Shown here: in pieces, positions 3,129-13,858 of the stretch | How the letters are laid out: each line of letters opens with the position of its first letter | How positions within the stretch are numbered: the stretch's first letter is position 1 | Translations under genes and position numbers: made by a program | Notes under the pieces: model-generated | The model's database searches: none | What the model was told of the DNA's origin: nothing | Seen by the model: only the letters and a program-made list of their open reading frames with translations | Origin: Alternaria dauci | Lineage: Eukaryota > Ascomycota > Dothideomycetes > Pleosporales > Pleosporaceae | Assembly (NCBI RefSeq): GCF_042100115.1 | Contig: NC_091274.1 | Coordinates: 1,550,001 to 1,614,000, forward strand | DNA length: 64,000 nucleotides | Direction of reading: 5' to 3'

Positions 3129-6100
3129 TTAGACAGTTTCCCCAATAGCCCCACTGCCAGCACCAGCACCCTTGCACCAAGGATGCTCAAGCACCATACT
3201 GATAGTAATCCTCTTTTCCACATCTCGATCGAGCATCAGTCGCACAAGATCGATGCTCTCTTCCGACATCACCCATGGAACGCGTAAATCGTGATCCATG
3301 ATTTCGTCAATGGAGTAGAACGGGTTTTCTTTGTAGATGATGGTGTAGAGGAGGATGCCGAGCGCCCAAACGTCTTGTTCTTTACCGCGATAGGCTTTTC
3401 CAGCTAGGACTTCGGGGGCGGCGTAGTCTAGAGAGTGTTAGTATGATTATCGCAAGTGGAGAAGCGGGAGAGAAACATACCAATAGTGCCGACAAAGACA
3501 TCAAACGGCCCACTTTTGATATATGCTGCACTTCCGAAGTCAATGAGCTTAATGTTGCCTTCGCCATCGAGGACGACATTCTCATCTTTGATGTCCCGAT
3601 GTACGACCTTTGCTTTGGTATGCAGATGATGGACTGCTTCTGCTACTTGCACAAAGATCTTACGGCATTCCTTCTCTTCCATGTTGACTCGCAGCTCAAT
3701 ATAGTCGAAAAGATCCATACCCGGTAGACCGTGTGGTATCATCTCAATGTAATAGTTGATGTCGTCTTCAAAGAAATCGGCCATCTCTACGATATTGGGG
3801 TGTTTGAAGCCGTCACGACGGAGATAGTCTAGCACATGAATCTCGAGTGGCACAGTTCCTAGCCTTCGGTCTCGTGTCCACGTGTCGACTAAAATGCGAC
3901 GCTTCGTAACGTACTTGATCACGACCTTCTTGCTACTGACCTTTTTGTACCGACAGAGCTTAACTTGCCCATAAGCGCCTTGGCCCATGTCCTCTAAGAC
4001 CACAAAGTCGTTGATGGTCTTCTTCTTGGGTGGCTCTTCCTGTGCAGAAACCGGTGGCGGTGCCATTGCCTTTGTTCGAATTTGTTGCGGGGTATTGGGT
4101 CGCATAGCTTCCTGAATTTGCTGAGTGAGGAGTGACACTGCAGGTGGAGTTCCTTGCGATTGGTGTGATTCGGGCTCTTGCGGCACTGAAAAATTTGACT
4201 GCCCTGGTTCAGGTTGGTGCGGCGAAGGTGGTCGCGACATAAGCGGAGTCACAGGACCAACACCGTGGTTTGCAGCATGCAGCTGCCTGGAGTATGTTAT
4301 CCACAAAGCGTAGACGAGCTCTGGACCCTTGGTAGGTTTGAATGAGCCATCCTCTTCTTCAATGACATTTTCATCGAATCGAGGAGACTTTTCACTCTTC
4401 ACCACTCGCATTTGCACATCGACCATGATTTCCGAGCCGTCACGATGCAGAGCTGGCAGTCCACTTGGTCGCAGGAATATGGCTGCCGCATCTGCGCTAC
4501 CCTCCCGCATTGCAAGCAGAGCACGGGCGCGACGGAAGCTGTGTTCGGGGATGACTATTCCGTCGACCAACTCAATCTTATCTTCATCGGTCATGACGTG
4601 CAATATCTTGTCGAATGCGGGTATGAGCTTGCTCACGTGGAGACCTTCGGGCCGTGGCTGTCCAAACAGAGCTGATGAAAAGACGGAATTGGAGCTTGTG
4701 ATTTTGAGATCGTCGGATGATAAAACAATGATGCCCGCGATGTGTGGGAAACTAGAAATGCGAAAAGTGGGTTCGCCCGGCATCGCCTCCACGGTCACTG
4801 GTATATTGATGCTGTTTGAAGTCCGCGCGGTGTAACTGCGAAATTCGTCGATCGAATCGTAGTCTAGCGCCCCAGTGTTTGTTCCCCGGAGTCGTGGTAT
4901 GCCTGGTATGAGTCGCTTAAGATCCATTCCCCTCCGTAACCGATCGCTCCCGAAGACAGCTTCGGTTGCGCCCCAGCCCTTGGATACGCAGCCTACATCG
5001 TCAACCGTAATATATACGACATCTTCCGCAATCTCTTCAAGCACCCAAATGAGACTACCTCGCTTCTCTTTGACCCACAAGCTGGCAGAACCAGTCGAGC
5101 CGTTGCGTTTCTGTATCGGAATGACATCTCCACAAAGTAGAACGCCTCGTGAGCCCTTGTGTTCATGGTTCAGCTTGCCTGTCTTCTTCGCATTGTAGTA
5201 TGAGGATCCACTGCCATCGTCTGTCTGTGCTTTCCTCGCGGCCGTCACTCGTGACGGGGCCTTGCTCAGTAACCGTGCAGTAACGCCACTGCCGACTTTG
5301 AGGTTGTTGATTGTAGAAGACGCCCCAGACAGGGCGTTCTTCGATCCAACCTCGGGATCCCTGAGCTTGCTTTCGAGCCACTTTCTACGGTCCTCTCGCA
5401 CGACTTCCAGTATCCCCAGCTTGCGAACCTCAGCTCTCGTTACACCGAATACAAGGCATGCCAAGTCGTTTGCGGATGTAATGGTCCATGGCGTATCTGT
5501 TTCGGTGGTGAAGATGGCTTGTGCTGCTGGAGCGTGTCGGCTTCCGTGTCCGTGTGGTGCTGAACCCGCAGAGTGAGGTCCTGGTGCATTGCTGAAACTT
5601 GGCGGTAGAGTTGGTATAATGGTAGGTGATACAAGGTCGCTGATCTTTTCTTGGTCTCCTACCCGGTATGGCTGCGCCAATGCATCGTGGAGTTGGCTCT
5701 GAATTGTAAGCGGCGCAACGTCGGTTAGGGTTCGTTTCAGCGCAGCTCTTTGGGGGCGTGCGGGTTGCGTAGATGGTGGAGGCGGAGAAGCTGCCGCTGT
5801 TCGTGTGCTCGACGCGTCGGAGGCGAGTTGGGTAGTCGACAAGTCTTTCCATTTACGAGAATCTGGTGCACTGCTGGTATCGGCAACATGGGCCGTAGCC
5901 ACTTTGTGTACTGGTGGTCTCGCAACCTCCAGCATGCTCTCGGGGCTCGCAGATCGACCAACTGTAAAACCCTTGTCGAATGGGTTCTCCCCAGACATGT
6001 CCGCCGGCCCTGTTACAGGACCTAGCGCTCCCAGTCCATGAGCTCCCGTGCCGTCTTGGCCTATGAGGTTTGCCCGTGTAAGCAGCTCCATCATACTCTG

Positions 6101-10373: not shown

Positions 10374-13300
10374 TTATTTCTTGGAAGCCTTCTGGGCGGC
10401 CTTGGTGACCTTGCCGGCCTTGTCGGCCTTGGCGACGGACTTGATGACACCGACGGCAACGGTCTGACGCATGTCACGGACAGCGAAACGACCGAGAGGA
10501 GGGTAGTCAGTGAAGGCCTCAACGCACATGGGCTTGGAGGGAACCATCTTGACGATGGCAGCGTCACCGGACTTGATGAACTTGGGAGAGTTCTCAACAG
10601 ACTTTCCGGTACGGCGGTCAATCTTCTCGAGGAGCTCAGAGAACTTGCAAGCAATGTGGGCGGTGTGGCAGTCGAGGACTGGGGCGTAACCAGCACCAAC
10701 CTGACCAGGGTGGTTGAGGACGATGACCTGGGCGTTGAAGGACTCGGCACCCTTGGGGGGGTCGTTCTTGGAGTCACCGGCAACGTTACCACGACGGATC
10801 TCCTTGACGGAGACGTTCTTGACGTTGAAGCCGACGTTGTCACCGGGGACACCCTCGACAAGCTGCTCGTGGTGCATCTCGACGGACTTGACCTCAGTGG
10901 TGACACCAGCGGGGGCGAAGGTGACGACCATACCAGCCTTGATGATACCGGTCTCGACACGACCGACGGGCACCGTGCCAATACCACCAATCTTGTAGAC
11001 ATCCTGGAGGGGAAGACGGAGGGGCTTGTCGGTGGGACGGCTGGGGGGGTCGATGGCGTCAATGGCCTCGAGGAGGGTCTTACCAGTGGCCTTGGCCTTG
11101 GTCTCCTTCTCCCAACCCTTGTACCAGGGGCAGTTGCTGGAGGCCTCAATCATGTTGTCGCCGTTGAAACCGGAGATGGGGACGAAGGGAACGTGCTTGG
11201 GGTTGTAGCCGACCTTCTTGATGAAGTTGGAGGTCTCCTTGATGATCTCCTGGTAACGCTCCTCAGACCACTTGGTGGTGTCCATCTTGTTGATGGCAAC
11301 GATGAGCTGCTTTACACCGAGGGTGTAGGCGAGGAGAGCGTGCTCACGAGTCTGACCATCCTTGGAGATACCAGCCTCGAACTCACCAGTACCGGCGGCA
11401 ATGATGAGAATAGCGCAGTCAGCCTGGGAGGTACCAGTGATCATGTTCTTGATGAAATCACGGTGACCGGGGGCGTCGACTAGATGGTGTCAGCAGGTGG
11501 ACCGCGTCCAAATCTCACTGTCGAAAAGAAAAAAAGAATTCATGTCGCTTGTCATGTCGATGCTGCGGCTTTGTGCTTGTCACTGCGCCTGTGTCTCGTG
11601 AGGGCAGTGCTGCTCGAGAAGTACTTGTTGCATGGCGCGCAGAAGTAGGTGCCATTCTCAAGAGCTGATGCACGCGATGCTCTCCGTTCCAGAGCAGCAG
11701 CTGAAAGAGGCTTGACGACCTTGAAGCCCCTTCCCTCAGCCTCAAGATGAGCGTCACTTCGCCGATGATCATCGAGAGCATACTGCGAGGCTGCATTGTG
11801 ATCACAGACCTCGCATCGGAAGCGCGCCAGCTCTTTCGCCTTGTTCCGGACACCAGCAGCGATCTCATTCACGCGCCCAGGATTGCGTTCGCTCCAAGAC
11901 GTGTGCTGCTTGAGGTTGTTCCTCAGGAAGACCTCCTCATTCTCGTCGCGCTTCCTCTTGCGGCAGCGCTGGGTCTTGAGTGCATCGCGCTGGCGGCGGA
12001 GTTCCCTGGCATGGACAAGCTCTTCCTCAGTGAGGGTGAGGTCTGCTCGAACGCTCTCTGATAGTGAGAGGTGGGTGCATCCAGGCTCCCAAGCCACCTT
12101 CTCGCGAGGCCAAAGGAAGAAGTCCGGAATGAAGACGTCATCCATGATCATCTTGACGCACGCGCAGAACACCACAGTATAGACAGCCTCCAATGCAAGG
12201 AAGCGGGCTCGTAGGCGAGGAACTTGCTGTGGAGAAGGCATGTTGGTCCAGCACAACATACCAAAAGTTAAGGAATAGCCCTGATTTAGGGCGCGCTGAA
12301 CAAGTTTAGGTATGACACCTTTACCTGTCCTGTAGGTGGTCTGGCGCCCTTGAACCCCATCCTTTGCATGAGTCCCAGACCCAATGTAGAGCATAGGTTG
12401 TAGCTGAAGATGCTCGAGGATGAGGGCATACACAGCCCATAGCTTGGAGGCGGTTGGCTTGGGGAGGCCTCGGAAGAAGTCGATGCTGGGTGGCTCTGGT
12501 GACGAGAGCACTGCATCCAAACCTGGGGCGACCTGGAGAGGTGTGTCGCTGACCACGGAATCCCATTTCTCACGCGATGAGAAGGCAGACTTGATGTTCG
12601 TGTTGATATACCAGTCGGGAAGATCGAGGTTGACGAGCCGAAAGCCAGCAGCATCAAGGTGTGACTCGATGGAACCAACCTCAGGGTCGAAGAAGTTCTC
12701 CATGATGGATGTCTTGAAGTGGATGAAAGACAGTGTGTGTGGAGGATGCAGGCTGGATGCAGATGATGCGGATGCGGTGCTGAGGTGTGATCCTGAGGAA
12801 TGAAGGCAAAGGACAGGAGGAGGCAGATAAAAGGCTCCTCAGGTCCTGAGGCAGCAGCATCATGATGGAAGGAACATGCTGCATCCGATGGCAGGAGCAT
12901 CGGGAAGTGGCAGCATGAGCGAGCGCAGCAACAGCAAGGGCGAGCTGAGCAGCGACAGGAGCGAGCGACATGACGGAAGGGGATACATGAAGAAGGTGCA
13001 TACACGATGAAAGGGGATACAAGAGGAAGGTGCAAACATACTGCATCGTGTTAGCATAGTGAAGAGCTGAGGAAGGGAGGATGCACGAACCTAACGGTGA
13101 CATAGTACTTGGGAGTTTCGAACTTCCAGAGCGCGATATCAATGGTGATACCACGCTCACGCTCAGCCTTCAACTTGTCGAGGACCCATGCGTACTTGAA
13201 GGAACCCTTACCGAGTTCGGCGGCTTCCTATGAGGCTGTTAGCCTACTGTAACCAGGGTTGAGAAGTTAGATGTGCATCATCACGCCCCCATGTAATCGC

Positions 13301-13858
13301 CAGGGTATGATATCGCCAACAAGAGGAAGACGAACGCTCCCCATGTAGTCGCCTGGGTAGGGTGTTCGATTTTCCTCTTGCATGGCGTGTGATGATGTCG
13401 GCTGCAAGCGGGCTAGCGCTAGCGCGTAAAAGTCCGCACAACCCCACCACCAAAAATGCCCCTCATCGCGATAAGCCAGAGTTTGGCAGAGCGCTCAGAG
13501 GAAGCACCAGGTGGATGCAGCAGTGCGTGTGAAAGGAAAAGTGATGCCATACCTTCTCGAACTTCTCGATGGTACGCTTGTCAATACCACCGCACTTGTA
13601 GATCAAGTCTGCATCCCAATGTAAGTTGTTTGACCCCGCAATCGTTCGGAGAGGGAGGGCTTACGGCCGGTGGTGGTGGACTTTCCGGAGTCGACGTGGC
13701 CGATAACGACCACGTTGATGTGCATCTTCTCCTTACTGCAACCATTGTTAGTAAGGTGTACCAGGCATAGGTGTGGCGGCCTTGAGCTACCCCAGTGGGC
13801 AAATGTCGAGAGACTCCACTGGTTGCAGGCGGAAGGCAGGCAGAGTGACTTACCCCAT
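10374..13858 (-). CDS. tef1: Translation elongation factor 1-alpha
   Basis: GTPase that delivers aminoacyl-tRNA to the ribosomal A site in the cytosol; 457 aa. Exons are 13858-13854 (only ATGGG), 13735-13665, 13608-13553, 13227-13092 and 11479-10374. They sum to 1374 nt, exactly in frame, giving [12 protein letters not shown]...[14 protein letters not shown], then [12 protein letters not shown] and the long last exon ending [12 protein letters not shown]. The P-loop (GHVDSGKS) and G3 motif (DAPGH) are intact. Introns 1-3 are 118, 56 and 325 nt. Intron 4 (13091-11480) interrupts the Ile codon of VTVIDAPGH. It cannot be spliced in frame as one GT-AG intron, but works as a [D1,2] twin intron (see separate entries). 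It contains a nested GIY-YIG/zinc-finger ORF. Base composition of the exons is strongly codon-biased, as expected for a highly expressed gene. Confidence 0.97.
11552..12703 (-). CDS. Putative GIY-YIG endonuclease with two U1-type C2H2 zinc fingers, nested in the EF-1alpha intron
   Basis: Intronless 383-aa ORF in the same orientation as EF-1alpha, wholly inside the external part of intron 4 and in a different frame from the host exons. Residues about 88-180 match the GIY-YIG nuclease layout: VYA (91-93), YIG followed by SGT (106-111), a helix Arg (R120 in VQGRQTTY) and the catalytic-type Glu (E172 in FLALEAVY). A basic, probably coiled stretch follows at about 230-295. Two zinc fingers of the U1/matrin spacing CxxC-x12-H-x5-H come next (C297, C300, H313, H319; C355, C358, H371, H377). 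A nuclease plus DNA- or RNA-binding fingers inside an intron is the layout of a homing endonuclease, which would spread the intron into empty alleles. That function is inference. It could instead be a domesticated nuclease or an inactive relic, although the frame is intact. A nested independent gene with its own promoter is also possible. Confidence 0.85.
   Translation of the reverse strand: MENFFDPEVGSIESHLDAAGFRLVNLDLPDWYINTNIKSAFSSREKWDSVVSDTPLQVAPGLDAVLSSPEPPSIDFFRGLPKPTASKLWAVYALILEHLQLQPMLYIGSGTHAKDGVQGRQTTYRTGKGVIPKLVQRALNQGYSLTFGMLCWTNMPSPQQVPRLRARFLALEAVYTVVFCACVKMIMDDVFIPDFFLWPREKVAWEPGCTHLSLSESVRADLTLTEEELVHARELRRQRDALKTQRCRKRKRDENEEVFLRNNLKQHTSWSERNPGRVNEIAAGVRNKAKELARFRCEVCDHNAASQYALDDHRRSDAHLEAEGRGFKVVKPLSAAALERRASRASALENGTYFCAPCNKYFSSSTALTRHRRSDKHKAAAST
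12969..13033. repeat. 33-bp tandem duplication in the leader of the nested ORF
   Basis: Two adjacent copies of a purine-rich unit (on the + strand, ...GGAAGGGGATACATGAAG... and ...GAAAGGGGATACAAGAGG...), with period 33 bp. They sit between the internal-intron acceptor and the nested ORF. Read on the gene strand they are pyrimidine-rich (GCACCTTC...TGTATCCCCTT). Confidence 0.65.
13041..13090 (-). other. Internal intron of the EF-1alpha stwintron
   Basis: A 50-nt canonical fungal intron: GTTCGT donor, GCTAAC branch site 9 nt before the acceptor, and a CAG acceptor. It lies between the first and second bases of the external donor. Its excision is needed to make the external GTATGT donor. Confidence 0.83.
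13284..13372. repeat. Pair of short hairpin-forming repeats (copies A and B) in EF-1alpha intron 3
   Basis: Two related units (CCCCATGTAATCGCCAGGGT and CCCCATGTAGTCGCCTGGGT) lie about 50 bp apart within the unusually long (325 nt) intron 3. An imperfect inverted repeat (AAGAGGAAGACGAAC against GTTCGATTTTCCTCTT) flanks copy B. They resemble copies C and D beyond the 3' end of the gene. Confidence 0.55.

Follow-up and report, generated by a model that had tools for sequence, protein, structure and literature searches.

The stretch of DNA studied here (the window) comprises 64,000 nt of Alternaria dauci contig NC_091274.1, positions 1,550,001 to 1,614,000. Its minus strand carries the EF-1alpha gene (TEF1), and intron 4 of this gene holds a long open reading frame (ORF) for a predicted GIY-YIG nuclease with C2H2 fingers. 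Exon-intron structures in the window and at related loci were read by eye from three-frame translations; the statements on splicing made below derive from sequence only. The number of the EF-1alpha intron likewise follows our own exon reading. The features of the locus are listed in window coordinates.

10374..13858, minus strand: EF-1alpha (TEF1) host gene, start codon at 13858-13856, stop at 10374
11480..13091, minus strand: element-bearing intron 4 of EF-1alpha, 1,612 nt, phase 1, between VTV and I of the DAPGH block
11552..12703, minus strand: ORF of 383 codons for the putative GIY-YIG nuclease with C-terminal C2H2 fingers, ATG start, stop included
12065..12445, minus strand: predicted GIY-YIG catalytic domain, residues 87-213 (Y92, Y106, G108, R120, E172)
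11741..11821, minus strand: first C2H2 finger, residues 295-321 (C297-C300-H313-H319)
11570..11647, minus strand: second C2H2 finger, residues 353-378 (C355-C358-H371-H377; PF12171)
12704..13040, minus strand: leader between the inner intron and the ORF
13041..13090, minus strand: putative inner intron, 50 nt
11480..11496, minus strand: apparent outer-intron branch point (CTGAC) and acceptor (TAG)
13093..13122, minus strand: upstream EF-1alpha exon flank of 10 codons, unusually non-optimal (13th of 403 windows)

Removal of the intron gives ...KYYVTV^IDAPGHRDF, and at this joined junction the host protein aligns without gaps to yeast eEF1A (1f60). No second EF-1alpha copy was found in the genome, where the remaining matches are 34-50% identical. 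Since ORF and host gene both lie on the minus strand, the ORF is sense to its host; the plus strand at 11552..12703 contains 13 stops. At 383 codons the ORF exceeds chance expectation: resampling the intron 5,000 times with a Markov model gave a longest sense ORF of 355 codons (mean 112). The leader is 67% C+T over its last 150 nt, contains no TATA[AT]A motif anywhere in 12704..13040, and leads into a start codon in the context ATCATGG.

Predicted models of the protein support a GIY-YIG fold resembling that of I-TevI. The two tyrosines, the glycine, the arginine and the glutamate listed above correspond to residues with roles in I-TevI catalysis, and the I-TevI asparagine has no placed counterpart here. 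In the alignment of the family these five residues are kept in 41 of 43 rows, and they are intact in all seven long copies of this genome. PF12171 matches the window protein at two stretches. By its modelled fold and catalytic residues, the ORF probably encodes a homing-type endonuclease. An earlier note on this DNA, made from the letters alone, had described an uninterrupted 383-codon ORF, sense to EF-1alpha and wholly inside its intron, with the GIY-YIG layout and two fingers. The positions of ORF (11552..12703, minus strand) and intron (11480-13091) agree with the first part of this description, and the predicted fold, the conserved catalytic residues and the PF12171 matches agree with the second.

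Searches of the 34.9-Mb genome with each of five protein queries returned the same set of eight loci; one query added two weak matches in the finger region (E 0.003 and 0.008). A search of the genome with the Pfam GIY-YIG family (PF01541) gave 19 matches, none of which is one of the eight loci. Six of the copies lie inside spliceosomal introns of 1.6-1.9 kb in six different conserved genes, the identities of which were confirmed by PDB searches with alignments gapless at every junction.

EF-1alpha: intron of 1,612 nt
V-ATPase A (VMA1): intron of 1,642 nt
F1-ATPase beta (ATP2): intron of 1,781 nt
F1-ATPase alpha (ATP1): intron of 1,875 nt
Carbamoyl-phosphate synthase large chain (CPA2): intron of 1,642 nt
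SSB Hsp70: intron of 1,714 nt, GC-AG

All six introns have GT/GC..AG ends and a branch point, and their predicted removal restores the host frame. They also share one layout, consisting of a leader of 295-485 nt, the ORF, and a trailer of 72-250 nt with branch point and acceptor. GIY-YIG genes are generally known to ride on group I introns, and we therefore considered whether an ordinary homing gene sits here in self-splicing introns of group I or II. We find this barely credible and rejected it: no Rfam family, and with it no group I core, matched at the gathering threshold in the 8 loci, the only Rfam hit of the EF-1alpha intron was a snoRNA with an E-value of 0.69, and the ends are spliceosomal in six of six. 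Two 8-mers (CCTTCCTC and TCTCTCAC) occur in five of the six introns, a count that shuffled sequences match in 1 of 200 runs; 7-mers such as CTTCCTC are also common to five, and here the shuffles reach at least five in 31 of 200 runs. The 8-mers are pyrimidine-rich words in pyrimidine-rich leaders, a locality that is lost in the shuffle, and we make no claim of a cis motif.

The insertions in VMA1, ATP2 and ATP1, paralogues that predate eukaryotes, split a glycine codon at one alignment column and in identical phase.

VMA1 site: SIYTG^VVISEYFRD
ATP2 site: ALTG^LTVAEYFRD
ATP1 site: PFSG^CSMGEWFRD

With about 500 codons and 3 phases, a simple estimate puts the chance that two more random insertions would match at one place at about 4e-7. 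The 12-column window that starts at the split glycine ties for most conserved in the three-way alignment (11 of 639 windows are at the maximum), and the window centred on this glycine ranks only 108 of 639. Multiple dispersed copies could also be left by a transposon with a GIY-YIG nuclease, Penelope-like or of the cut-and-paste kind, landing in introns; the endonuclease of Penelope-like elements is of the GIY-YIG type. Although endonuclease-containing Penelope-like elements are known (PMC3846280), we regard this explanation as very improbable. Neither the 14 Pfam families for the window protein nor the best 25 of 53 for 16 members include a reverse transcriptase, inverted repeats of at least 14 nt are absent from the ends of the six intron regions (which have two internal pairs only), and a transposon is hard to reconcile with one codon being hit in several paralogues and with recurrence at like sites in different species.

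Such sites came to light in annotated proteins of other species, found by protein searches that each scored only the 8,000 candidates sharing most words and so missed relatives. The EF-1alpha protein of Septoria linicola runs through the host sequence to YYVTV, then into the ORF and then into IDAPGHRDF, and in a further EF-1alpha protein (P0030) the ORF runs into VDAPGHRDF, in both cases at the junction seen in the window. In Cryoendolithus antarcticus the EF-1alpha protein is joined at VTVIDAPGH, with the exact site perhaps a few codons upstream. At other hosts, the ORF is followed by EYFRDEEGQ in an ATP2 protein of Elasticomyces elasticus and by FTTVADNQ in an SSB protein of Alternaria alternata. 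EF-1alpha-type matches were absent from Alternaria in these searches; this absence was not used, as gene predictions may miss such ORFs. The earlier note had proposed to look in related dothideomycetes for the ORF in introns of other genes; relatives were seen in the six hosts here and at the EF-1alpha, ATP2 and SSB sites elsewhere. A misassembly as the source of the ORF in the intron, one of the outcomes that the note had named against its proposal, is unlikely because annotated proteins of other species have like arrangements and junctions.

In a tree of 43 rows, the four EF-1alpha-hosted proteins (the window's own, P0028, P0030 and P0031) fall into one clade of 21 rows (100/100); the host was seen directly for 4 of these 21, and the hosts of non-fused homologues are deduced from the tree. 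The clade includes Septoria (Mycosphaerellales), Cryoendolithus (Cladosporiales) and Parastagonospora, which we take to belong to the Pleosporales. The two SSB proteins pair with each other (100/99). The VMA1 copy nests among ATP2-type proteins, in a region where some nodes have 80-87% support, as retargeting between V-ATPase A and F1-ATPase beta would give. Judged from these sequences, the like sites across species, the site-wise clades and the shared ATPase codon indicate target-gene specificity of the elements. The ORFs themselves diverge far faster than the host exons, with identities of 74% versus 99.5% for SSB (Alternaria alternata; exons, 182 residues), 47% versus 94% for EF-1alpha (Septoria) and 48% versus 93% for ATP2 (Elasticomyces).

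Odd codons beside the VMA1 site prompted a test of codon preference around the insertions. The exons of the six host genes were set by hand, the automatic models having been judged wrong in all six; the coding sequences of VMA1, ATP2, ATP1 and CPA2 are partial, and one ATP2 glutamine codon was assigned manually. Around the six sites, codons in centred windows of 20 are less optimal, with a mean rank of 0.049 among windows of the own gene (EF-1alpha 0.043, VMA1 0.028, ATP2 0.114, ATP1 0.061, CPA2 0.035, SSB 0.012; P printed as 0.00000 in 100,000 draws). Ordinary introns of the same genes, taken as controls when more than 90 nt from an insertion and far enough from sequence ends (nearer ones were dropped; n=22), had a mean rank of 0.457 (Mann-Whitney p 1.2e-4 versus the insertions). 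The dip was robust for half-widths of 4-30 codons (P 0.0006 or less) and persisted without VMA1 and SSB (P 0.0002). Exon coconversion from outside donors or error-prone repair would fit this footprint, as would a splicing-related constraint as a third cause; indirectly, the footprint favours a spread to intron-free alleles. A comparable footprint is known from mobile mitochondrial introns, reportedly from the work of Repar and Warnecke. In PMC5378118, raised diversity is described beside mobile mitochondrial introns of fungi, coconversion from outside donors or error-prone repair is discussed, and the exon sequence beside the insertion is likewise altered. The introns described here are nuclear, whereas those are mitochondrial, and our footprint concerns codon usage in one genome, whereas theirs concerns single-nucleotide polymorphisms in populations (PMC5378118).

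We consider it likely that this fungal nuclear genome carries spliceosomal homing introns, namely the six element-bearing introns described here. This reading is supported by the predicted I-TevI-like fold, the six introns in six conserved genes, the shared ATPase codon, the like sites elsewhere and the codon footprint; the idea of the earlier note that a homing element relies on the spliceosome is to this extent well supported, circumstantially. Each element would be an ordinary spliceosomal intron (GT-AG or GC-AG, with a standard branch point) that carries a GIY-YIG/C2H2 endonuclease gene. The protein, made from the intron or from a transcript of its own, would bind host-gene DNA at a site within an exon block that evolves slowly and cut the intron-free allele, and repair from the intron-bearing allele would then copy the intron together with some flanking exon. 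Removal of the intron from the mRNA by the spliceosome would keep the cost of insertion into an essential gene low. Occasionally the nuclease would acquire a similar site of a different gene as its target, for instance between V-ATPase A and F1-ATPase beta. We infer all of these steps, from expression and splicing to cutting of intron-free alleles, repair copying and retargeting.

Several observations weigh against this reading. The 15 Pfam families for the window protein do not include PF01541, and the best 25 of the 53 for 16 members (E<=5) do not include GIY-YIG; comparison by hhalign with GIY-YIG domains from this assembly gave a probability of only 6.4% (P 0.0058), and Foldseek with the whole model found no match at E<=0.001. 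Of the comparison with GIY-YIG by profile and structure that the earlier note had proposed, the predicted fold agreed and the Pfam half did not, and we take the missing PF01541 match as divergence since the predicted models show a GIY-YIG fold. The codon test was initially applied to the downstream flank by itself and gave no significant result (P 0.064), and the centred window was picked after this result had been seen; GC content at third codon positions alone gave a weaker signal (mean rank 0.251, P 0.016), and the dips could stem partly from splicing signals next to introns that are long or exons that are very short. The EF-1alpha-site element may have been inherited vertically for long. 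In the ATP2 copy (L010, reverse strand), an in-frame TAG precedes the end of the second finger; the frame beyond it is still finger-like, and the copy looks recently decayed. Finally, two of the eight copies lie outside introns.

L015, 3984-5147, minus strand: free-standing copy, 3' of the stop codon of alpha-tubulin
L014, about 4262-4740: relic with a truncated GIY-YIG domain, lying upstream of an Hsp70 gene of the SSA type

The free-standing copy forms a clade of its own with annotated relatives in Alternaria, Paraphoma and Plenodomus, in one of which the catalytic Glu is replaced by Lys; it could be a domesticated or a free-standing homing gene. The Hsp70 site that is occupied by the element in SSB is uninterrupted in the SSA gene beside the relic.

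Most of the probability that we place outside the homing reading goes to long-settled nested genes, that is, vertically inherited GIY-YIG/C2H2 genes with a cellular role (e.g. in DNA repair or regulation) that are immobile now or always were. The EF-1alpha-site clade, which looks old in spanning Septoria, Cryoendolithus and Parastagonospora, the lineage standing free beside alpha-tubulin, and active sites that stay intact would all suit such genes. We nevertheless hold them to be improbable in view of the six different conserved hosts with an identical codon in three ATPase paralogues, the codon footprint, and the fast divergence of the ORFs against host exons that are 93-99% identical; moreover, a cellular role would not predict target-like placement. 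A further explanation, which is compatible with homing introns and concerns only their present mobility, is that these are recently dead or dying elements, remnants of formerly mobile ones. This is conceivable, though we lean away from it. The TAG in the ATP2 ORF, the relic near SSA and the shorter SSB ORF (331 aa), in which the second finger is absent in the alignment, point to decay; among the six intron copies, however, only that in ATP2 has a stop in the region aligned to the window protein, and the catalytic residues persist in the seven long copies and the 41 of 43 rows given above.

The classical carriers of homing endonucleases are self-splicing introns and inteins. In contrast to the GIY-YIG homing endonucleases that reside in group I introns, I-TevI among them, the host intron here would be spliceosomal, no Pfam GIY-YIG match was seen, and C2H2 fingers and other flanking domains are present. 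The introner-like elements of fungi, reportedly described by van der Burgt in 2012 (cited in PMC11889510), are likewise spliceosomal introns that multiply in Dothideomycetes; to our knowledge, and unlike the introns described here, introners lack a protein gene and do not target conserved sites. Spliceosomal homing introns ('shintrons') have been described in mirusviruses (Nat Microbiol Nov 2025, PMC12768974), in which 132 of 334 intron endonuclease genes are GIY-YIG and mobility was proposed from the viral genomes. The suggestion of the earlier note that this would be a new kind of selfish intron is corrected by that work. The two systems share endonuclease genes in introns with spliceosomal donor and acceptor, no group I/II signature, and target-gene specificity; the shintrons reside in viral genomes, mostly in virion genes, whereas ours lie in housekeeping genes of a cellular nuclear genome and have C2H2 fingers, a codon footprint and a stwintron (PMC12768974). 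The likeness drawn here is one of features. A scan of IMG/VR with the window protein gave no viral relatives, which is a weak test based on exact short patterns. No report of spliceosomal homing introns in a cellular genome was found in the literature, as searched by titles and abstract openings with most subscription papers outside the search, and the novelty appears to be that they occur in the nuclear genome of a cell, within housekeeping genes. The introns described here behave like the first group of Swithers et al. (PMC2814812).

If the homing reading is true, a selfish element outsources its removal to the host spliceosome, which would open every nuclear gene as a haven, even those for EF-1alpha and the ATP synthases. 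It would also provide a concrete, testable DNA-level route for the long-debated gain and horizontal movement of spliceosomal introns. With six defined target sites and their nucleases, fungi could serve as a cellular system for the mobility proposed from mirusviruses, and the predicted GIY-YIG and C2H2 nucleases may be a new set of natural site-specific enzymes.

The EF-1alpha intron has a peculiarity of its own. No simple GT/GC-AG intron was found to restore ..VTVIDAPGH.. exactly; only two GC-AG options were in frame, and both alter the protein. We therefore prefer a stwintron, and the intron reads as one of the [D1,2] type. The 50-nt inner intron (GTTCGT..GCTAAC..CAG, ending TGCTAACACGATGCAG) would split the outer donor between G and T, leaving the ORF-bearing outer intron with the donor G^TATGT and a 3' part ..CTGCTGACACCATCTAG. 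This reading concerns the EF-1alpha intron only. In the [D1,2] stwintrons of PMC12403724 the inner intron likewise lies between nucleotides 1 and 2 of the outer donor; the difference is that the outer intron here carries an endonuclease ORF, and the main text of that article contains neither 'endonuclease' nor 'homing'.

Ordinary introns also crowd near the insertions, lying at most 28 nt from four of the six, with the inner stwintron at a fifth. Measured in nt of coding sequence, short introns stand at -14, +20 and +28 in SSB, -28 in CPA2, -20 in ATP1 and +17 in ATP2, leaving exons of 8-28 nt (L013 around 3484 and 5197; L012, L011 and L010); VMA1 has no ordinary intron within 777 nt of its insertion. 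A rough combination by hand of this clustering was not significant without counting the inner stwintron. The crowding introns are possibly scars or shields linked to homing. Together with the inner stwintron they hint at a broader idea that we rate as unlikely, namely that in fungal nuclear genomes a guild of homing spliceosomal introns hops among conserved sites of essential genes, retargets between paralogues and leaves altered codons and possibly new ordinary introns behind, which would make homing a cellular source of spliceosomal introns. The short intron 20 nt upstream of the ATP1 insertion (L011, reverse strand) ends GT..TG (TACTAACCAACCTATTG before GTACCTC) and not GT..AG; its removal is needed to restore PLQYLAPFSG, and it represents either a rare splice site or a base error.

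Outside the window, contig C3 carries a cluster of GIY-YIG genes at 3,333,235-3,436,590, several of them with in-frame TGA, and two, near its two ends, with identical scores. This cluster seems to be the mitochondrial genome, attached at the end of the contig on which the window lies, or else a copy of great length in the nucleus.
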